24,237 nt of DNA from positions 1 to 24,237 of the IMG/VR virus record IMGVR_UViG_3300006920_000244. The stretch is one strand, 5' to 3'. This document shows, one piece after another, positions 3,250 to 13,550 of the stretch. The notes under the pieces are model-generated. The model had not been told where the DNA came from and ran no database searches. It saw only the letters and a program-made list of their open reading frames with translations. Each line of letters opens with the position of its first letter. Position 1 is the stretch's first letter. Both the position numbers and the translations under genes were made by a program. The DNA comes from a virus.

Positions 3250-4401
3250 ATGAATGTTGTAGTAGGAAAAGTAGAGAATAATAAAGACACTACCGAGACG
3301 GGAGTACTTCAGGTCATCATCCCTAAAGAATCGGACCCTGATCAAGAATACATAACAGAGGTAACCTACACCTCCCCTTACTATAGAATGAATACGGGGG
3401 GGATAGTGGCAATCCCGGAGGTCGGCGCGGAGATACTTGTGCTTCATAATAAAAATCCGAGACGTGGAGAGAGTAACTACTACTACCTATCGTGCGTAAT
3501 ATCAGCAAAGGCTAGAGGAGGTTCGGATGAATTCTTGACAAACCCTTCTTCAGGAAAGCAATCTCGCATTAGGATAAATCCAAACTTTACTCCGTTTAAT
3601 AATAACGATACTAAAGCTAAGATTTATGGAAAAAATCAAAAGCCTGTAACTCAAGCATTCACTAACACTGCGGGAGCAGGATTATACATTCACAGGGATT
3701 TCGAAAAAGTACCGATAGCTAATGATGTCACTTTAAAGTCGGAAGGAGGAAACGAAGTAAACGTAGGTAGTTTAGGAGTTCAGATATCAAATGAGGAAGG
3801 GGACTCCGTAGTTCTAACAGGTGCTACAAAGAATGACATGTATGCAAAGAGGGGACTATACATCGAGACTACTGGTCCTCAAGAATACAAATGTGTTAAC
3901 TCAGATATTAACATGAGAATTCTTGAGGGTGGCGACGTAAATATTGAAAACAATTCTGCTGGTCTTCGATCTTTGGGCAAATGGTTTGGAAATATTAGAT
4001 TAAAAAGTAGGTTTCGTAATATAGACTTAGTAGCAGGTTCTCCCACTAGTAATGTAAATATAATTACACCTGGAGCTAACATACAGGTTGACGGACTAGG
4101 TAATATAAAAATACTATCTACAGGTGGATTAAATTTTAATACTATTGGATCTATGAATTTTACATCTAACACAGGGGATATCAACTTAACATCATTGGCG
4201 GGATCCGTAAATTCTTACGCCGGTATGGCTATATCTACGCAGGCTACAAATTACTTTAAGAACACTAGTGATGACAATTTCGCTGGTGCTACTGTAGATA
4301 CGAATAGTGCAATTGCTCCTTTCCCAGTTCCACCTCCTCTTGCAGCATCACCTCCTGATATTACAGCTAATGATTACGGAGATCCTTTAGGAGCAATTTA
4401 A
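3250..4401 (+). CDS. Tail spike / puncturing protein, gp5/VgrG-like, without lysozyme domain
   Basis: A 383-residue protein. Residues 1-88 read as the OB-fold of gp5/VgrG/gpV spikes. It opens with a short 'VVVGKVENN' strand, then 'GVLQVIIP', then 'YYRMNTGGIVAIPEVGAEILVLH', matching the family signature of a G-x-V-x-x-P-E-V-G-x-x-V strand pair, then 'YYLSCV'. Residues about 215-335 are short alternating strands rich in Gly, Asn, Ile and Ser (for example NVNIITPGANIQVDG, GDINLTSLAGSVN). This fits the intertwined beta-helix needle of such trimers. The end is Pro-rich (FPVPPPLAASPPD). T4 gp5 (575 aa) carries a lysozyme domain between the OB-fold and the helix; none is visible here, and no PAAR-type tip is seen. 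The start follows the hub gene by nine bases with an AGGT nearby. The stop overlaps the next ATG (TAATG). Confidence 0.8.
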   Translation: MNVVVGKVENNKDTTETGVLQVIIPKESDPDQEYITEVTYTSPYYRMNTGGIVAIPEVGAEILVLHNKNPRRGESNYYYLSCVISAKARGGSDEFLTNPSSGKQSRIRINPNFTPFNNNDTKAKIYGKNQKPVTQAFTNTAGAGLYIHRDFEKVPIANDVTLKSEGGNEVNVGSLGVQISNEEGDSVVLTGATKNDMYAKRGLYIETTGPQEYKCVNSDINMRILEGGDVNIENNSAGLRSLGKWFGNIRLKSRFRNIDLVAGSPTSNVNIITPGANIQVDGLGNIKILSTGGLNFNTIGSMNFTSNTGDINLTSLAGSVNSYAGMAISTQATNYFKNTSDDNFAGATVDTNSAIAPFPVPPPLAASPPDITANDYGDPLGAI

Positions 4402-7022
4402 TGGCTTTTGACGCAAAAACATTTTTAGAATCAGATCCTAGTAATAGTTTAGGAGGTTTAGGGGCTAGCTTTGGATTGCCTAGCTGTATGTTAGGTCTAG
4501 CAGCCGATGTATTAGGTCTTATACCTGCTCCTATCCTCTTGGCGATGAGGCAAGCTATTGAGTTTGCTCAAGCATTAGCAGACGCTGTTATTAAAAGAAT
4601 TAATTCATACATTAGGGATTTATTAGGTATTTCATTATTCCCTGACAGAGATGGGTTTAAAGGATACTTCTCTGAGTTCTCCAGATTTAAGATGGATGTT
4701 CTTTCTGGAATCGTAGGTGCCATAGCTGGATTTGCTGCTTTCGCGCAGGCAATACAGCAAGCCGCTGAAGAATTAATGGGGAGATATCAGCAAGCTGTTG
4801 ATTGCCTCGCTGCCTTTAAAAAGTCTTTAGATTTTCAGAATGGAAATGCAGGAGAGAGAAGAGCGGAGTTAGCTGCCCTTGAACCTACTGGATACGATAA
4901 TATGATAAACTCCCAGTTTGGAGTTTACTTTCAGCAATCTCAGCAAGCTCAACAATTTAGCGATGAATGTCAGGATCAACTAGATGTTATTGATGGAATC
5001 TTATTAGAAAGAACTTTAAACCCTTCTTTAGAGCCTGGAGATTTGCCTGATGAAGTTGTAGAGTCAGTATTCCGTTTGGAAGCTGGACCTCCTAAGTCTA
5101 CCCTTGGTAAGTTTGTTCTCTCTGTTGATGGTCTGTATTATGACTCCAAGACAGATGGGATTACTCCGGCGTTGCTTGAGTTAGATAATAGAAAGAAGGA
5201 TCTAGATCTTCTTGATGAGGGAGGGTTTGATAATCCTGACCTTTGGAAACTAGAATATGATCCTAGCTTGGGTGGTAGGGGTGCTCCGACAACTTCAGAT
5301 GAGCTACAGTATTACTTCAATAGTATCCTAGATCCTAAGTTATTAGATAATTCTCAAGCATTATTAAACTTCTATAATGCGGATGAGCTTTTATTGTCTT
5401 TGGAAGGGCAGAAGGATAGAAAGGTATTTGATGTTTCATCTGAGATTCAAGAGCTAATAGATGACGGGGAGTCACAGGCGGTGATATCTAATCTTCGTCA
5501 AGTTATGCTGTCTGAGACCTCTCATTTCCAGGATAAGATAAATAAACGTAAGAAGCAAATTGAGCTTGCTGTTAAGGTTCCTAATTTCTTAGGTAATGGA
5601 CCTCAATTCACTCCTGGCAATGTTCCTGTAAATGATTTCTCTTACTTAGCTGGGTCAAACTTTTTACTAGATATTGAAAATCAAAGAAGCATTACTATAG
5701 ATCAAGCAGATGTTACAGGCGTTGTCTTGCCTTTAGAGATTAAGTATACTGACAAGATTGAGACTAATGATCCTGTAGTGTTGGATCATATTCTATTGAG
5801 TAATGTGGCTAAGGGAGAAATAATTAGTAATCCTTCTAGTCCTGCTGCTCCTACTCTCCATATTAATGATCGTATATCGGAAGATGGGTTAATTGGTTTG
5901 TACAACTATCTGACTGTGCAATCAAGTTTACCTTCGGGAACTGACTTTGGAGTTCATAATAGCAGTAGATTAGGAGGAGGTTACGCTTCTCAAATAATTG
6001 GGTCGGTATCTAGCGTCTTTAATAAGGGTCTAGGTATACCTTTCTTAAGCGGGGTAGCGTTGCCTAGTAAGGATGATAACTCAGTGATTGCAAGTATGGG
6101 ATCTTATGTTAAGCTTCCTTCTAAGAATGAGTTTAAAGACTTCTTGTATAACAGCGAGGGTGCAAGCCTTGAGAACTGGATATATGTTCCTAGCTTAGAT
6201 AACGCCAATGCAGGCTGGAACGTCAATGACAATAGTACGATGGGATTGTATCGCCTCATATTAGCTAACGAGAATGTAGGAATAGCGCAAGGCAAGGAAC
6301 CTCAGCCAGACATAGATAATTTAAATTTAGATTCTGGAACGGATGTTGTAAGAGGTTTAGTATACGGTTTCACAAGAGATAGAAGATTCACACAAGGGTT
6401 AGAGCCTAGTAATAGTGATTCAGACAATAGCGTTGAAAACAGCGTTTTAGTTTTAGCACCAACTCAATCCTATGATTCTTCTAGCGCAGGATTTATTGCT
6501 AATAGAACAGCAAACTGCAATAAGGATTCCTACTACGGGATGACGATTCCTGTGTGGCAAATAATAAACAACAAGTCATTATCTAGTTGCGGAGAATCGT
6601 TTTGCCAGTTATCGGTATCCTTAGATCCTGTTGAGGATAAGATTAGCGTTTATCTTGATGGTACTTTGCTATCCACGTCTAGCTACCAAGGAGTATTTGG
6701 AACAACCAAGGTTAATTCAACGTTCAAGGCTCCTTCCGTATACCAAGATAATTCCTTTGAATACTCGGCAGGACCTTATCTAGATTCTTACTTTACTCCT
6801 TGGATTATAGGAGGCGGTTATACGGACGGGTTCTCAGCAGGAAACTTCATGGGAGGAGAGTATGGAGGAAAGGTTAGTGGCCTGAAGGGTTACGTAGGTT
6901 GTAGTAGATTTTATTCAAAGCCACTTAGTGATGGTGAGGTACTAAATAACTATAACGCTACTAAGAATTTCTTCAAGAATATATCTCTAAAAGAGGATTG
7001 GGAATCTGTCATAAGTGAGTAA
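4401..7022 (+). CDS. Virion protein with hydrophobic helical N-terminus and C-terminal LamG/concanavalin-like domain
   Basis: An 873-residue protein. An AGGAG at 4389-4393, seven bases before the ATG, is one of the clearest ribosome sites in the window, and the start overlaps the previous stop (TAATG). The N-terminus holds two Ala/Leu/Ile-rich stretches (about residues 26-64 and 99-121), probably helical, then a polar region with Glu/Asp/Lys helices to about residue 400. From about residue 570 to 858 it resembles a LamG/concanavalin A-like fold. It shows a 'NWIYVPSL' opening strand, 'SVSLDPVEDKISVYLDGTLL' in the middle, and a closing 'GLKGYVGCSRFYSKPLSDGEV' followed by 'NNYNATKNFF'. That is the usual G-x-[IV]-x-x-x-R-x-Y-x-[RK]-x-L-[ST]-x-x-E-[IV]-x-x-N-Y closing motif. 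Such domains bind glycans or support protein contacts in tail proteins. The N-terminal region is unrecognised, so its place in the virion is inferred from gene order only. Confidence 0.68.
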   Translation: MAFDAKTFLESDPSNSLGGLGASFGLPSCMLGLAADVLGLIPAPILLAMRQAIEFAQALADAVIKRINSYIRDLLGISLFPDRDGFKGYFSEFSRFKMDVLSGIVGAIAGFAAFAQAIQQAAEELMGRYQQAVDCLAAFKKSLDFQNGNAGERRAELAALEPTGYDNMINSQFGVYFQQSQQAQQFSDECQDQLDVIDGILLERTLNPSLEPGDLPDEVVESVFRLEAGPPKSTLGKFVLSVDGLYYDSKTDGITPALLELDNRKKDLDLLDEGGFDNPDLWKLEYDPSLGGRGAPTTSDELQYYFNSILDPKLLDNSQALLNFYNADELLLSLEGQKDRKVFDVSSEIQELIDDGESQAVISNLRQVMLSETSHFQDKINKRKKQIELAVKVPNFLGNGPQFTPGNVPVNDFSYLAGSNFLLDIENQRSITIDQADVTGVVLPLEIKYTDKIETNDPVVLDHILLSNVAKGEIISNPSSPAAPTLHINDRISEDGLIGLYNYLTVQSSLPSGTDFGVHNSSRLGGGYASQIIGSVSSVFNKGLGIPFLSGVALPSKDDNSVIASMGSYVKLPSKNEFKDFLYNSEGASLENWIYVPSLDNANAGWNVNDNSTMGLYRLILANENVGIAQGKEPQPDIDNLNLDSGTDVVRGLVYGFTRDRRFTQGLEPSNSDSDNSVENSVLVLAPTQSYDSSSAGFIANRTANCNKDSYYGMTIPVWQIINNKSLSSCGESFCQLSVSLDPVEDKISVYLDGTLLSTSSYQGVFGTTKVNSTFKAPSVYQDNSFEYSAGPYLDSYFTPWIIGGGYTDGFSAGNFMGGEYGGKVSGLKGYVGCSRFYSKPLSDGEVLNNYNATKNFFKNISLKEDWESVISE

Positions 7023-7024
7023 GG

Positions 7025-9106
7025 ATGGTAGATAAGTATTTTGTAAACTGTAGAGGGGCAACTTTCAATAAAGTCCATACTGATGAGTGGGATAAGTCAG
7101 GAGGTCTTCCTAGGATGAGCACTCCTTTTCAACCAGTCACAGTTGATTACGATAAGGATTACATGACCTTTGCAGGGTCTACTAAAACTTCTAATTGGCT
7201 TCATTGGAATGATGACGAAGCTAACAGTCAACTAGATTATTTATCTAAAATAGGGGTAAATCTAATAAGGGTATACGCAGACCTGTTTACCTGGGATGCT
7301 TTAGGGAGTAGATATTTGCAATCGGTAGAGTCTCTAGCAAAACTATGCAACTCCAAAAAAATGTATATTCAATGGGTCTTATTTGATGGATATACTCAAG
7401 ACGATACTCCTTCTACCAATCATTCATTAGGGTATCTAGATCCCTCTACTATCCCTGAGGCGATGTCTTGGGGAATTCGTAGATGGCAGAGGTGCCCTAC
7501 TATTAACGAGAATAGCATTAGCGGAACCAGAGATTACTTTAAGTTAGTGGAGGACATTCCTAGTAGATCAGGTTCCTCATTATCTCCTAAAGTAGAATCT
7601 TACATATCTGATATGTTGTCAACCGCTGGAAAGTACAGATCGGCATTGTCGTGGGAAGTAATGCACGATGTCAACATTCTTGATACTGAGACTAATGCAT
7701 ATTCTTTTTTAATTGCTGCCATAAACAAGGTGAATTCGTTAAAGACTGCAAATCAAAAAACTACAATTTCGTCAAAATACTTAAATGCGTATAGTACTAA
7801 GGGGTCTAATGGTACACCCGATGTATACGATAGCACCTTAATAGAGCAAGTAATTCCTTTACTTGACTACGCTTGCGAGCTAACAATTAATTTTACAATT
7901 TTAGGCTTTATAAATTCTTACAGGAGATTACTTGATTTTTCTTCTAAAACTAAAAAGCCTTTTATGCTGATAGATTCTTTTAATGAGTCTTTATTGACTC
8001 CTTCTGAATTCTTTACTTTTGCAAAAGATTTCAATGTTGGAGTTATTTGTGAAGGCATGGTTGATCGAGCCATGAGTAGAAAGCCTAACAATGATACGAA
8101 AGGTATTTTGTATGATGACGGGTCTTGCAGAAGAAGTGTTGACGCTAGTGCTGTAAAATCTAAGGCATCTAATGACGGCATAGGGTTCACTAAATTAAGT
8201 TTACCTTCCGAGAAAACTGATTTCAACAATCTGTATAGTAAAGTAGCTTCTAGCTTTGAGAGGTTTGAAGCTCATGGTGACTTTGGTTATTGGACCTTTT
8301 CTTCGATTCATGAGGCTCATGAGGGGTACCCTGAGTTTTCGGGAACGCCTATAGGTTATCTGCCCATGGCATCTTCAGTATCGTCTACCAAGAACGGATG
8401 GGGAGTCGTAGGAGATGGGTTAGGCTACGGTTATGAGAGTAATTATTTATTTTCAAGTCTTAAACTTTGGGACCAGTATGGGAACCAGAACTTCGCAAGC
8501 TGGAAACTATTCCAACATATATCCGATCCTGTAGAAAGGGATAAGCAGGGATCTAAAATGCTGGCAAAGCTTATAAGGCTAACCCAAGACTTGGACATGA
8601 CATTCGGACATAATTTTCACAATAGCGAAGGGTATTCTATACCAAGTTTAGTGTCTTTTGCTACTCAAAATAATGTGCAGACTTATGCTTCGGGGTATTT
8701 GCCAACGTCCCTTACTAAAACTAGTAAGTACAATAAGAGTCCTTTAGTGGGGAGTCCTAAACTTCTTTCAAACTTATCTCCTTCTGATGGAGGGTACAGG
8801 CAATCAGTTACCGAATTAGATAAACCTCTTTGTTATTGGAATAGGCCCTCGGGGGCAGAATTCGCCAGCGGATGCTGTGACTACAGTGCAGCTATTACTG
8901 TAGGGACCATGGATACGGAATATACTGATATCTTAAATACAAAAATTGATTGGTCCTCTTACGACACTGATTTCTTCTATTGGTCGGCATATTTGTATAA
9001 TGCTTACGTTGAAGCTAATAATAGCTTAAAAAGTTATCTAGAAGCATTAGGAGATCCTAGGGTATCGAGCTACTTAGTTACCCAAACCCCAGTGGTAATA
9101 GGCTAG
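7025..9106 (+). CDS. GH5-like (clan GH-A) TIM-barrel protein with atypical active-site residues
   Basis: A 693-residue protein; the ATG lies two bases after the preceding stop. Residues about 50-375 follow the strand order of clan GH-A glycosidases. 'LSKIGVNLIRVYADLFTW' (residues 73-90) is the strand 2 theme. 'MYIQWVLFDGY' (113-123) is the next strand. 'ALSWEVMHD' (207-215) sits where the family has W-x-x-x-N-E. 'KKPFMLIDSFNES' (310-322) sits where it has K-P-x-x-x-x-E-[FY]-G. 'NVGVICEGMVDR' (337-348) looks like strand 8. In this reading the acid/base glutamate is Asp215, the preceding Asn is His214 and the nucleophile glutamate is Asp317. Activity is thus doubtful, or the domain may only bind glycan. 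Residues 380-693 form an unrecognised aromatic-rich region, perhaps for virion attachment. It converges with the minus-strand gene and shares four bases with it. Fold assignment is by eye only. Confidence 0.5.
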   Translation: MVDKYFVNCRGATFNKVHTDEWDKSGGLPRMSTPFQPVTVDYDKDYMTFAGSTKTSNWLHWNDDEANSQLDYLSKIGVNLIRVYADLFTWDALGSRYLQSVESLAKLCNSKKMYIQWVLFDGYTQDDTPSTNHSLGYLDPSTIPEAMSWGIRRWQRCPTINENSISGTRDYFKLVEDIPSRSGSSLSPKVESYISDMLSTAGKYRSALSWEVMHDVNILDTETNAYSFLIAAINKVNSLKTANQKTTISSKYLNAYSTKGSNGTPDVYDSTLIEQVIPLLDYACELTINFTILGFINSYRRLLDFSSKTKKPFMLIDSFNESLLTPSEFFTFAKDFNVGVICEGMVDRAMSRKPNNDTKGILYDDGSCRRSVDASAVKSKASNDGIGFTKLSLPSEKTDFNNLYSKVASSFERFEAHGDFGYWTFSSIHEAHEGYPEFSGTPIGYLPMASSVSSTKNGWGVVGDGLGYGYESNYLFSSLKLWDQYGNQNFASWKLFQHISDPVERDKQGSKMLAKLIRLTQDLDMTFGHNFHNSEGYSIPSLVSFATQNNVQTYASGYLPTSLTKTSKYNKSPLVGSPKLLSNLSPSDGGYRQSVTELDKPLCYWNRPSGAEFASGCCDYSAAITVGTMDTEYTDILNTKIDWSSYDTDFFYWSAYLYNAYVEANNSLKSYLEALGDPRVSSYLVTQTPVVIG
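9103..9106. other. CTAG shared by two convergent stop codons
   Basis: The plus-strand GH5-like gene ends in TAG at 9104-9106. The minus-strand gene ends in TAG on the complement of 9103-9105. The palindrome CTAG therefore provides both stops, leaving no intergenic base between convergent genes. No terminator-like hairpin with a T-run is evident on either side, so transcripts from the two strands probably overlap. Confidence 0.95.
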
Positions 9107-11484
9107 TATACCCTTCCCCCTTTAGCAATATGATTATGTTTAATCATTGCTGCTGGCAATACTTCTTCCGCATTTAAAGACTCTTCATAGGTGTAATTGC
9201 TTAAGTAGTTTTCTAACTTATTAATTACGTCATCTGCTGAGGTTCCTACAATCACTAAATTTTGATAGACAGTCCATCCTTGAGGGACAAAAGGAGTACT
9301 GTTTACTCCTGCATATATACTTCCGTATTGCATACCCATGTACATCTTTTGGCCGTAAGGGTCGTTATCCCATAAACCTCTACTAAATTTAGTAGCCCTA
9401 GCATCCCCATTGTTTGCCGTGCCATCATCAGTTATGGTACCACTTACAGCATAATTAGTAATATCACTGATAATATCTGTAGGGTACATCCAATTACTTG
9501 CGACATTTGAAGGACTATTTCCTTTATTAGGAGACATTACGTAGTATTTTCCTACTGCTACAGAAGATAGATCTCCAGGAGCATCATCATTTCTTTCTTG
9601 TATTACCATAACCTTTCTACTTCCTAGCCAGTGCTCAGAAGGAGAAACTCCATATATAGATGTAGAGTCTGTATATCCTTCAAATTTAGAAGTAAACTTA
9701 ACATATCCGTCCGCACCGCTTGTTACTACTTGTGCAAGACTCATAAAGTTTCCAGAAGCATCTGCTCCTTGAGTATTATCTCCTTTGTAGTTGTAAATAA
9801 CTTTTAACGCTTGCCGAAACTGACTTGATGCCTGAAGAGGAGGGAAAGCACTAAAAGTTACTCCTAATTCAAGAGCTTCCTGCCCAGAGACGCTGGTTCC
9901 GTTTGAGAAAGTAATCTTATGAACAGGCAGTCCCGACAACTTTATTTTTCTTTTATTTTCAGGAGAATAAACATACATTTCATTCATTCTTCCGTCTATA
10001 GTTCCTCCTAAAAGGGAGTTATAAGTCCCCCCTGTTCCCGCAAAATCAGCTTGCGACTCATGCCAATACTTCATAGTATCAAATACTTTGTTTTTAATTT
10101 TATCTGATAGTTTTACATCATTAGATTTTAAATAAACATCTGAATTTCTGTAATTATCAATACTAAACTTGGAAGATAAGTATACCCCATATAACTCTCT
10201 GTGTACTCCTTCTACTCCATTATGATTCACATCTTTTTGGAGGTACAGTCTTTGACCTCCGTTAAATATTTGATTTGTATCCACTGCTCCTCTTTCTGTA
10301 GCATTAATTGGTGTATCTAAAAATCCTTTTCCTACACCCTTCGAATCCCAATAATCACTTACGGAACTATTGGAGTAAGTGAACGGATATAAATAATAGG
10401 GGAACGCAGTAGGATCCCCTGAAGTTGCACCACCTCCCTTCAGTTCTCCTCCGAAATCCACAGGATACATGCCAGCTTTTATACTTCCTGAGTCTCCATC
10501 AATATCTACTTTAGAGTAGCATCCTACGGCGTTTGACTGCTGAAAAAAACCATGTATCTTTTCTGGAGTAAATGACCTAGCTTGAGTAATGCCTTTAACT
10601 TGTCTATACATTAACTGGCCCATTGCTGATCCTGGAATAGGGTTGTAGTATGTTAGGGGAAGGGGAGGGTCAAAGTATAGATCCTTTAGAGCGTAATCCT
10701 CCTCACTAGTACCAGTTGAGATTGCGTAAGACGCAAGGAAATCATAAAAGGCTCTAAAGGAGTCTTGTACTTGATAATCGCCATAGGATTGCGCCCCGTA
10801 TCCGAAAAGTCCATCTGGTTGCGTAATGATTGCCCCATCGGCATTCTCACACTCTGCCGATGGTTTGCTTATCCAAACGTCAACCATCCGACCACTATTC
10901 TCATCTACCAATAAAGTGTTATTACCAATAGTGATTACGTTATCTCCCGCGTACTTAGACTGAGTTCCTTCTTTGTAGGGCTTATACCAGTCAAAATACC
11001 AAGATAAAACTCTGTCATAATCAAATCCCCACCTGTTAGTACCGTATCCGTGCCTAATAGCTTCTCCCCCAAATCCTTGGTCAGTGTCATTAAAGTCTAA
11101 AAGGGCTGAAACCTCATCAGAAGCTAGAGTTCCTGATCCGAAATATTTTACATCATCCCAAGCTGATGCTTGAAATCTTCCTGTTACAAAATGGTATTCG
11201 TCTTCAAAAAACGCTCTCCTAGTGTTATTAATGCTTAAACTAGAAGTATCTACTTTTGGACGTGATTGCAGATTAGTAAGTGATTTTTGATTTGTTCTAG
11301 TAAGTTGAGGTCCGTAATCGGCAGAAGCGTTAATAGACTCTCCGCCAAGTGGAAACTCTTCTGAGTTAATGTATCCGTAATTAGGAGTTCTTGGGACAAA
11401 ATCGTCGTGATGCTCTCTTGATATTCTAGCCATGGTATATTGAGGTAATTTGTATACTGCCTCTAAATATCTATACAGATACAT
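9103..11484 (-). CDS. Large protein of unknown function encoded antisense to the baseplate operon
   Basis: A 793-residue uninterrupted frame, the only minus-strand gene in the window. In this AT-rich DNA a frame of that length is very unlikely by chance, and no competing plus-strand gene covers it. The protein is visibly rich in Tyr, Gly, Ser, Asn and Asp, with aromatic clusters such as 'VLSWYFDWYKPYKEG' (residues 159-173), and it has no evident signal peptide or membrane segment. This composition fits a secreted or virion-surface beta-rich protein such as an adhesin or fibre, but I recognise no family. It ends on the CTAG shared with the GH5-like gene. An alternative start at Met18 (base 11433, MARISREHH...) looks more like a natural N-terminus and would leave 69 bases for divergent promoters. 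Neither start has a clear Shine-Dalgarno sequence. Confidence 0.85.
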   Translation of the reverse strand: MYLYRYLEAVYKLPQYTMARISREHHDDFVPRTPNYGYINSEEFPLGGESINASADYGPQLTRTNQKSLTNLQSRPKVDTSSLSINNTRRAFFEDEYHFVTGRFQASAWDDVKYFGSGTLASDEVSALLDFNDTDQGFGGEAIRHGYGTNRWGFDYDRVLSWYFDWYKPYKEGTQSKYAGDNVITIGNNTLLVDENSGRMVDVWISKPSAECENADGAIITQPDGLFGYGAQSYGDYQVQDSFRAFYDFLASYAISTGTSEEDYALKDLYFDPPLPLTYYNPIPGSAMGQLMYRQVKGITQARSFTPEKIHGFFQQSNAVGCYSKVDIDGDSGSIKAGMYPVDFGGELKGGGATSGDPTAFPYYLYPFTYSNSSVSDYWDSKGVGKGFLDTPINATERGAVDTNQIFNGGQRLYLQKDVNHNGVEGVHRELYGVYLSSKFSIDNYRNSDVYLKSNDVKLSDKIKNKVFDTMKYWHESQADFAGTGGTYNSLLGGTIDGRMNEMYVYSPENKRKIKLSGLPVHKITFSNGTSVSGQEALELGVTFSAFPPLQASSQFRQALKVIYNYKGDNTQGADASGNFMSLAQVVTSGADGYVKFTSKFEGYTDSTSIYGVSPSEHWLGSRKVMVIQERNDDAPGDLSSVAVGKYYVMSPNKGNSPSNVASNWMYPTDIISDITNYAVSGTITDDGTANNGDARATKFSRGLWDNDPYGQKMYMGMQYGSIYAGVNSTPFVPQGWTVYQNLVIVGTSADDVINKLENYLSNYTYEESLNAEEVLPAAMIKHNHIAKGGRVY

Positions 11485-11502: not shown

Positions 11503-11946
11503 ATGGCAATTTCAAGCAACACAACAACTTTTGGAAATTTAGTTCCGGGGCCTATGCAGAGACCCGTTACAGGTCAGGATCCTAGATTAGTAGGTTTAGA
11601 GTACCCTGTACCTGTTGACCCTAAAAACGGATACTTCAGCAAGATGTCGGGACTATCATTAGTTAAGTCTAATTTAAGGTCTATTTTAAAGACGGAAAGA
11701 GGCGAGCGTTTTATGAGACCTGATTACGGGTGCAATTTGCGTAAGTTTCTAATGGAGCCTTTAGATGCTGTGACCTTTTCACTGATAAAAGAAGAGATTG
11801 TCATTGCCATACGTAGATACCTTAGCACAGTTTCTTTAGGAAAGGTTCAAGTGTTTGAAACTGTAGATTCTAACTTAAAAGTAAATCTCTTTTGCAACTA
11901 TAGAAATTTAACTTCGACTTCATTTAATGTCGGTGTAAGGATATAA
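11503..11946 (+). CDS. 25: Baseplate wedge protein gp25-like (GPW/gp25 family)
   Basis: A 147-residue protein, close to T4 gp25 (132 aa). The core is unmistakable: 'GLSLVKSNLRSILKTERGERFMRPDYG' spans residues 50-76, matching the family theme I-x-x-x-I-x-x-I-L-x-T-x-x-G-E-R-x-M-x-P-x-[FY]-G. The helix 'IKEEIVIAIRRYL' and the strand 'KVQVFET' follow. In T4, gp25 belongs to the wedge core with gp6 and gp7 and contacts the first sheath ring; TssE is its type VI secretion counterpart. About 45 extra residues precede the core. The usual Glu-Pro-Arg motif after the helix is not visible; this protein has 'RYLSTVSLGKVQV' there. It is the first plus-strand gene after the antisense gene, has no clear Shine-Dalgarno, and its stop overlaps the next start (TAATG). 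Confidence 0.93.
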   Translation: MAISSNTTTFGNLVPGPMQRPVTGQDPRLVGLEYPVPVDPKNGYFSKMSGLSLVKSNLRSILKTERGERFMRPDYGCNLRKFLMEPLDAVTFSLIKEEIVIAIRRYLSTVSLGKVQVFETVDSNLKVNLFCNYRNLTSTSFNVGVRI

Positions 11947-13550
11947 TGGTAGTATTTTCAGGAACGGTTCAATCAGATTTTTTAAAGAAACTTCCTTCTG
12001 AACTGGACAATAAGCAGGGACTCATAAATTTCGCTTCGTCGGACTTTAATTCTTTACGATCTAATCTGTTATCGTATGTAAAAGCTAATTTTCCTTTAGA
12101 TTATAATAACTTTGAAAGCTCTGACTTTGGAATGTTATTACTTGAGATGATGGCAGCGGTAGGGCACATTCAATCGAATAAGTCTGATTACCTTGCTAAC
12201 GAAAACTACATTGGAACGGCACGTAGTAGGGATAGTGTAAAGAGATTGATGGAGCTTATAGGGGTTCGGATGAAGGGTCCTATTGCTGCTGCTGCTAACG
12301 CATCCGTTACATACACTACGAACGCTGTTGCTGCTCCTTCTTCAATGACAGTAGCGGCTGTTGATAGAGTTAAATCAATTACGTCTCCTGAGGATGGAGC
12401 TACGTTAAGTTATACGTTATACAAAGTAAACTCAAACGGAACTGTAGACTTAACCACTCCTTCAGTTGATTTAGAATTTGAAGTTTCTTCTTCAGGCGGC
12501 ACAGTCTTGGTTACGGATGCGGTATTGTTGGAAGGAGCTTTGGTAAGAGAGAGGGGGACCTTTACGTCTCCTGAATCTATCCAATCAATCAATCTAGGTC
12601 AAGCCCCTTACATTGAGAAAAGTGCTCAGGTGTACCTAGAAGGAAATCCTCTAACCGAGGGAATTTATAAGGAAGAAGAAAATATCTACTTCGCCTCCGG
12701 CGGCACAGATAAGGTTTTTCAGGTAACTACTGATGAAACTTTTAGGGCTTCTCTTTTGTTCGGGGATAACAGTATTGGTCAAAGCCCTTCTATAGGAGAT
12801 CAATATACTGTCACTTATCGAGTTGGAGGAGGAACTAGAGGTAATATCGCAAATGGATCTTTAAACATTCCTATAACCATTACTTCCACGCTTGGCGCAG
12901 CTACGGAGCAGATTCAAGGAACCTTGGAAAATACTAGTGTAGGAACTGGAGGAAGAGGTGCCGAGTCTATAGCTCAAGCTAAAAGATATGCGCCACTAGT
13001 GTTTAGAAGTCAGGACCGGCTTGTAACTCTTTCTGATTATAAGGGGTTTGCTAATTTGTTTGCCTCTAACTACGGAAGCACTGGGAAGGTCACAGCCACC
13101 GTTAGACGAGCTTATTCTTCCGCTAATATGATAGACTTGTTTGTATTAGAACGAGCCTCAGACAGGCAACTGAGGCGTGCTACGAAGGAGTATAAGAGAC
13201 AGCTTCTGGCTGAGATACAAGACAAGAAGATGCTTACGGATGAGGTTGTCATCGTTGACGGATTAATCAGAACTTTAGATTTGATAGTAACTTTAACTGT
13301 AGATTCTAAATTCAGAAGAAATGAAGCTCCTTTAATTCAGAGTGCAAGAGCGTCCATTGAAAACTACATGAACATTGATAATACTGACTTTGCGGAGCCT
13401 TTCGTTCCTCAGGATCTTATTAGAACTGTTCTAGAGGATGAAACTAATATTAGATACGCAACGGTTGACAATGTGGAATCTGCAATTACAGTAGGCTTTA
13501 ATGAAATCATACAGCTTAATAACTTAACTGTCAAGGTAAATTACATCTAA
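11946..13550 (+). CDS. 6: Baseplate wedge protein gp6-like (baseplate J family)
   Basis: A 534-residue protein. The N-terminus (residues 33-107) has the gp6 pattern: 'FNSLRSNLLSYVKANFP', then 'NFESSDFGMLLLEMMAAVGHI', then 'ANENYIGTARSRDSVKRLMELIGV', where the family reads N-E-x-F-x-x-T-A and ends in L-G-[YV]. The central baseplate J signature lies at about 266-305: 'RASLLFGDNSIGQSPSIGD', then 'VTYRVGGGTRGNI'. Residues 341-367 ('IAQAKRYAPLVFRSQDRLVTLSDY') match the A-P-x-x-[FY]-x-x-x-x-R-x-V-T-x-x-D-Y motif. In T4, gp6 dimers build the inner ring of the baseplate and tie wedges together. T4 gp6 has 660 residues, so this copy is compact. AAGGA at 11937-11941 stands four bases before the ATG. 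Both ends overlap their neighbours as TAATG. Confidence 0.92.
   Translation: MVVFSGTVQSDFLKKLPSELDNKQGLINFASSDFNSLRSNLLSYVKANFPLDYNNFESSDFGMLLLEMMAAVGHIQSNKSDYLANENYIGTARSRDSVKRLMELIGVRMKGPIAAAANASVTYTTNAVAAPSSMTVAAVDRVKSITSPEDGATLSYTLYKVNSNGTVDLTTPSVDLEFEVSSSGGTVLVTDAVLLEGALVRERGTFTSPESIQSINLGQAPYIEKSAQVYLEGNPLTEGIYKEEENIYFASGGTDKVFQVTTDETFRASLLFGDNSIGQSPSIGDQYTVTYRVGGGTRGNIANGSLNIPITITSTLGAATEQIQGTLENTSVGTGGRGAESIAQAKRYAPLVFRSQDRLVTLSDYKGFANLFASNYGSTGKVTATVRRAYSSANMIDLFVLERASDRQLRRATKEYKRQLLAEIQDKKMLTDEVVIVDGLIRTLDLIVTLTVDSKFRRNEAPLIQSARASIENYMNIDNTDFAEPFVPQDLIRTVLEDETNIRYATVDNVESAITVGFNEIIQLNNLTVKVNYI

Follow-up and report, generated by a model that had tools for sequence, protein, structure and literature searches.

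Animals and protozoa have pseudoglycosidases whose ligands are glycans or molecules that mimic sugars (PMC7828330). Klotho, which is GH1-like, and YKL-39 are glycosidase barrels that lack the catalytic set and are used for binding (PMC7828330); both are animal receptor or immune proteins, however, and the proteins listed in that work include no phage baseplate protein. A phage example comes from the endosialidase EndoNF, which after mutational inactivation has nanomolar affinity for its glycan (PMC7828330). Loss of catalysis thus need not prevent tight glycan binding by a virion glycosidase, although this form is laboratory-made and belongs to GH58. An active phage enzyme of the GH5 type has also been described: gp095 of Erwinia phage S6 (Schitoviridae), with predicted catalytic residues Glu570 and Glu689, is active on carboxymethylcellulose and has been tied to cellulose, an exopolysaccharide, as the first receptor (PMC9544554). 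Phages with a GH5 barrel are therefore nothing new in themselves. The protein studied here is likewise a phage-encoded GH5-like barrel, but it has Asp at both places where S6 gp095 keeps Glu and, unlike EndoNF, acquired its change naturally; the new aspect is an active site that is degenerate yet stably conserved. In the literature searched, we found no phage baseplate described as containing a degenerate GH5 barrel, which is weak evidence of novelty because subscription journals were mostly outside the search.

The window, by which we mean the whole stretch of DNA analyzed, spans 24,237 nucleotides of an IMG/VR virus record (IMGVR_UViG_3300006920_000244, positions 1 to 24,237). The barrel gene lies on the forward strand at 7025–9106 and, as supported by the open reading frame, homologs and an AlphaFold model, encodes a GH5/clan GH-A-like protein of 693 aa within a baseplate operon. 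Its baseplate neighbors are a gp53-like wedge (phrog_232), a gp25-like wedge and a gp6/J-like wedge. The slot holding the gene is flanked upstream by a forward-strand gene at 4401–7022 and downstream by the gp25-like gene (11503–11946, forward; PF04965, E 1.9e-11; phrog_261), which is followed by the gp6/J-like gene (11946–13550, forward; phrog_219, E 5.5e-36). A 64.5-kb contig with an essentially identical barrel gene also encodes the terminase large subunit, portal, major head protein and tail sheath, and the phage is therefore contractile-tailed. The C terminus of the upstream gene product (6201–7019) weakly resembles LamG/concanavalin lectins (PF13385, E 0.016, in two of four homologs), and the slot thus adjoins another possible glycan binder.

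Two further observations concern the surroundings of the slot in other phages. The closest gp6-like wedge in INPHARED, at 26%, belongs to a 595-kb uncultured phage (LR756511.1) that has a similar order of gp53, gp25 and gp6 and a slot without the barrel; the phage group of the window may be related to huge phages. At two loci, both ORFs of a pair located 3' of the gp6-like gene (786 and 1404 aa in L048, 783 and 1025 aa in L017) match the family of the 1323-aa baseplate protein, possibly as the result of a duplication.

Searched alone, the window protein had no match in Pfam, NCBIfam, PHROGs (best E 0.45) or PDB sequences, and tblastn with it found none among INPHARED phages. Two scans of bacterial genomes revealed neither a cellular nor a prophage relative of the barrel. 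Every curated family cut-off lay above the score of the window-clade protein, and the protein goes undetected by current annotation and would be labelled hypothetical. Direct searches yielded only relatives at about 49–100% identity. We gathered related phages via their gp6-like neighbor, using the gp6/J-like wedge as the query, which gave 58 loci, and iterated a profile over the ORFs of these. The iterated profile recovered distant relatives in the same slot, between the upstream gene and the gp25-like gene, and further searches extended the family to an alignment of 21 sequences.

The aligned sequences fell into three active-site states. Seven relatives (L029, L030, L066, L049, L091, L092 and L100), about 21–27% identical, have N-E at strand 4, H-x-Y at strand 6 and E at strand 7, as do the GH5/clan GH-A enzymes (7lr1/7lr6 of GH5_18, 3wh9 and 8d89), and we denote this state E/E. 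In the D/D state, found in the window, L004, L006 and L007, strand 4 has H-D, strand 7 has D and the H-x-Y is absent; the four distinct sequences are joined by one fragment, L051, which counts for strand 7 only. The remaining state, K/A, has N-K or S-K and then A and comprises ten sequences (L020, L021, L022, L031, L033, L061, L080, L086, L088 and L089). Common to all full-length members is the strand 2 Arg also seen in GH5, R82 in the window (7268–7270, forward), assigned from the family alignment and the codons.

In the window, the position where relatives place the acid/base Glu of N-E falls in WEVMHD (residues 210–215, 7652–7669, forward), with D215 encoded at 7667–7669, and that of the nucleophile Glu falls in KPFMLIDSFNES (residues 311–322, 7955–7990, forward), with D317 at 7973–7975. 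The open reading frame and both motifs lie exactly where the original prediction had put them, and its central claim, that both catalytic Glu positions read as Asp, is borne out by the seven relatives with N-E and E in the aligned columns and by a profile–profile comparison of D/D and E/E sequences (probability 99.9, E 1.3e-32) that paired D215 and D317 with Glu. The local alignments contained no gaps, and the spacing was anchored by an invariant Pro before strand 7. The change extends beyond the two carboxylates: in the window clade the Asn before the acid/base is replaced by His (H214–D215), the His-x-Tyr of strand 6 is lost, in a strand whose alignment is uncertain within the D/D clade, and the aromatic after strand 8, another GH5 hallmark, is lost as well. 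A strand 8 Glu, E343 (8051–8053, forward), is invariant in the D/D clade only and might provide an alternative carboxylate. The C-terminal region (residues 386–693, 8180–9103, forward) is conserved in the D/D clade.

Two oddities were seen in individual contigs. In L027, the barrel-family gene is split into two ORFs (596 and 356 aa) by a frameshift or an assembly error. The start of contig L051 (positions 3–47) translates to HRDLHSFPTRRSSDL and resembles a sequencing adapter left in the public contig.

A structural model built from the four close sequences reached a pLDDT of 28, and the alignment of the 21 family members was used instead. The resulting AlphaFold model of residues 1–394 had a pTM of 0.76 and a mean pLDDT of 65, with unreliable loops at 124–184 and 255–266, and contained eight strands in barrel order (10–13, 80–84, 114–118, 207–214, 245–250, 283–286, 313–316 and 339–343). 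We assign residues 1–385 (7025–8179, forward) to the (beta/alpha)8 barrel domain. In the model, D215 comes immediately after strand 4 and D317 immediately after strand 7, so that the two Asp lie at the C-terminal ends of the strands named by the original prediction. A Foldseek search of the PDB was led by GH5_18 enzymes, GH5 mannosidases and mannanases, GH164 and other clan GH-A members (best E 6e-8), with TM-scores to GH5 of only about 0.5. The top 36 matches were all glycosidases, chiefly of GH5 and the rest of clan GH-A, and some non-glycosidase barrels appeared lower. In a viral structure library, the best match was the GH5 protein of Pseudomonas phage POR1. The GH5-like barrel in GH-A strand order thus stood up as a predicted structure.

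Profile searches against glycoside hydrolases, the other proposed check, were negative for the window protein alone and positive for its relatives. Pfam Cellulase was matched by 9 of the 21 members (best E 2e-4); at its cut-off of 23.5 bits, the window protein had no match and the relatives, as whole proteins or records, scored below wherever the cut-off was shown. Against the PDB, the family profile matched glycosidases only, the best being the GH5 endo-mannanase 8d89 (E 0.0035), and the profile matches led by this enzyme aligned the N-E of the family with that of GH5. The sequence scores to GH5 are weak, and the weight lies in their agreement with fold and motif. The window protein has the (beta/alpha)8 barrel and the strand 2 Arg of GH5 and lacks the Asn-preceded acid/base Glu, the nucleophile Glu, the His-x-Tyr and a score above the Pfam Cellulase cut-off. 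As two of these are defining residues, the protein should not be classed among the GH5 enzymes, although GH5-like is an acceptable description.

In an unrooted tree with long branches, the D/D and K/A sequences each formed one clade (support 100/100), with the E/E sequences as the remainder. GH5 enzymes outside this family are, to our knowledge, Glu/Glu, and E/E is therefore likely the ancestral state, from which D/D and K/A would be two separate departures, with the caveat of the missing root and the long branches. The barrel is under strong purifying selection, with a dN/dS of about 0.08 between the window and L004. The four distinct window-clade sequences (49–86% identity to the window) all share both Asp, H214 and E343 are likewise invariant throughout the D/D clade, and across independent contigs the codon of D317 is GAT in some and GAC in others. 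Sequencing error and pseudogene decay were considered as sources of the Asp pair and are ruled out by the same Asp in independent contigs, the synonymous codon differences and the low dN/dS. Conserved residues were not significantly enriched at the barrel's pocket end (9.5% of the shifted masks performed equally), and sequence alone does not therefore mark the pocket as the working part.

Complete slots in the gp6-neighbor sample, for which the barrel was not used in the search, contained the gene in 14 contigs and lacked it in 28. In most slots without it, the two flanking genes share about one base, and the barrel gene is therefore an accessory insertion. Beside the D/D barrels, and only there, is found a convergent partner gene, located in the window on the reverse strand at 9103–11484 and encoding 793 aa (689 aa in L006). 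The partner is 27% identical between subclades and had no informative profile match, DUF3907 matching weakly in two members (best E 0.0026).

The comparison of close pairs revealed that this cassette moves on its own. In L006 and L007, identity is 94–100% over a stretch that begins early in the barrel gene and runs almost to the end of the partner, and about 50–77% outside it; between the window and L004, the flanks are mostly 88–100%, the barrel 78–90% and the partner 56–76% identical. Recombination and divergence of the cassette of barrel and partner are uncoupled from the baseplate backbone, as in receptor-binding modules. Host-recognition modules commonly show such exchange and local divergence, and an accessory, recombining and diversifying cassette in a tail operon has the character of an adsorption module. 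The convergent arrangement of the two genes raised the idea of a Mu-like invertible segment, which was rejected because the pair has no convincing inverted repeats on either side.

The K/A clade differs in carrying an extra C-terminal part of ~600 aa (L061, 7640–9550, with equivalents in L021, L022, L031, L033, L080, L086 and L088), which has a conserved N-x-D and GDD pattern. This part gave one weak Pfam match, to the GH49 N-terminal domain, and no PDB match, and the GH49-like reading is only a lead; from its sequence, the part may be a depolymerase that succeeded a dead barrel. At about 7100–9550 in L033 and L061, identical C-terminal DNA is joined to diverged barrels and flanks, a sequence pattern of recent recombination within the gene.

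Computation establishes the homology to and descent from a GH-A-like enzyme, the fold, the Glu replacement, the conservation and the recombining accessory slot. Building on these, we consider it fairly probable that a clan GH-A barrel has turned into a non-hydrolytic glycan-binding adsorption module of a myovirus. The gene descends from a GH5/clan GH-A-type retaining beta-glycosidase that entered the slot between two baseplate genes; in the window clade, the catalytic pair became Asp/Asp and the Asn became His, and the strand 6 His-x-Tyr was lost, while purifying selection kept the fold. Probably placed on the virion, the barrel protein would now hold a host-surface or matrix glycan in its pocket without cleaving it and, presumably working jointly with the convergent partner protein, would give the particle a reversible grip before the baseplate commits. 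Glycosidase homology combined with loss of the catalytic set is what characterizes pseudoglycosidases, Asp/Asp being a conservative form of the loss. That the resemblance to GH5 is due to chance, the protein being another kind of TIM barrel in which the Asp positions mean nothing, is very improbable: such an accident would fit the lack of database matches to the window protein alone and the non-glycosidase barrels lower in the fold list, but it is largely refuted by relatives that match GH5 profiles and bear the GH5 catalytic set in aligned columns, and by the glycosidases filling the top of that list.

The original prediction allowed either a retired glycosidase or an enzyme with unusual carboxylates; the barrel with its Asp pair stands, and the former is the more probable of the two. 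In glycosidases of other clans, Asp can serve as the nucleophile or the acid/base, and the Asp pair is therefore no proof of inactivity. The protein could be an active glycosidase with D215 as the acid/base and D317 as the nucleophile or base, possibly inverting, given the wider spacing of carboxylates on shorter side chains, or possibly with E343 as a replacement. Both changes indeed retained a carboxylate, where the other derived clade went to Lys/Ala, and the clade's invariant H214, D215, D317 and E343 and its strong purifying selection would suit an enzyme. In clan GH-A, which is defined by Glu/Glu, replacing Glu by Asp usually lowers activity by orders of magnitude, however, and the residues that assist GH5 catalysis, the Asn and the His-x-Tyr, are also missing. 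We therefore regard an active enzyme as unlikely; the retired glycosidase is favored because the Asn, the His-x-Tyr and the strand 8 aromatic have gone and a sister clade is fully dead. It is also improbable that the barrel is a structural or spacer scaffold, with the C-terminal region or the partner binding the receptor. Such a role would agree with the nonsignificant enrichment at the pocket end, with a partner that diverges faster than the barrel, as a specificity part would, and with the added C-terminal part of K/A members; against it, two thirds of the relatives lack the gene and leave no gap, making it dispensable for building the baseplate, and within each clade the changed positions show no drift, each being fixed to a particular residue.

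Arguments about how phages pass between cutting a glycan and simply holding one usually draw on unrelated proteins. In this phage group, a single slot contains Glu/Glu, Asp/Asp and Lys/Ala forms, and the slot looks like a natural series leading from a cutting enzyme to a likely sugar-gripping module, making the evolution of an enzyme into an adhesin testable with natural variants. Clan GH-A is the largest glycosidase clan; if the Asp/Asp form were active instead, it would represent a novel catalytic pair for a clan whose hallmark is Glu/Glu, inside a phage baseplate.
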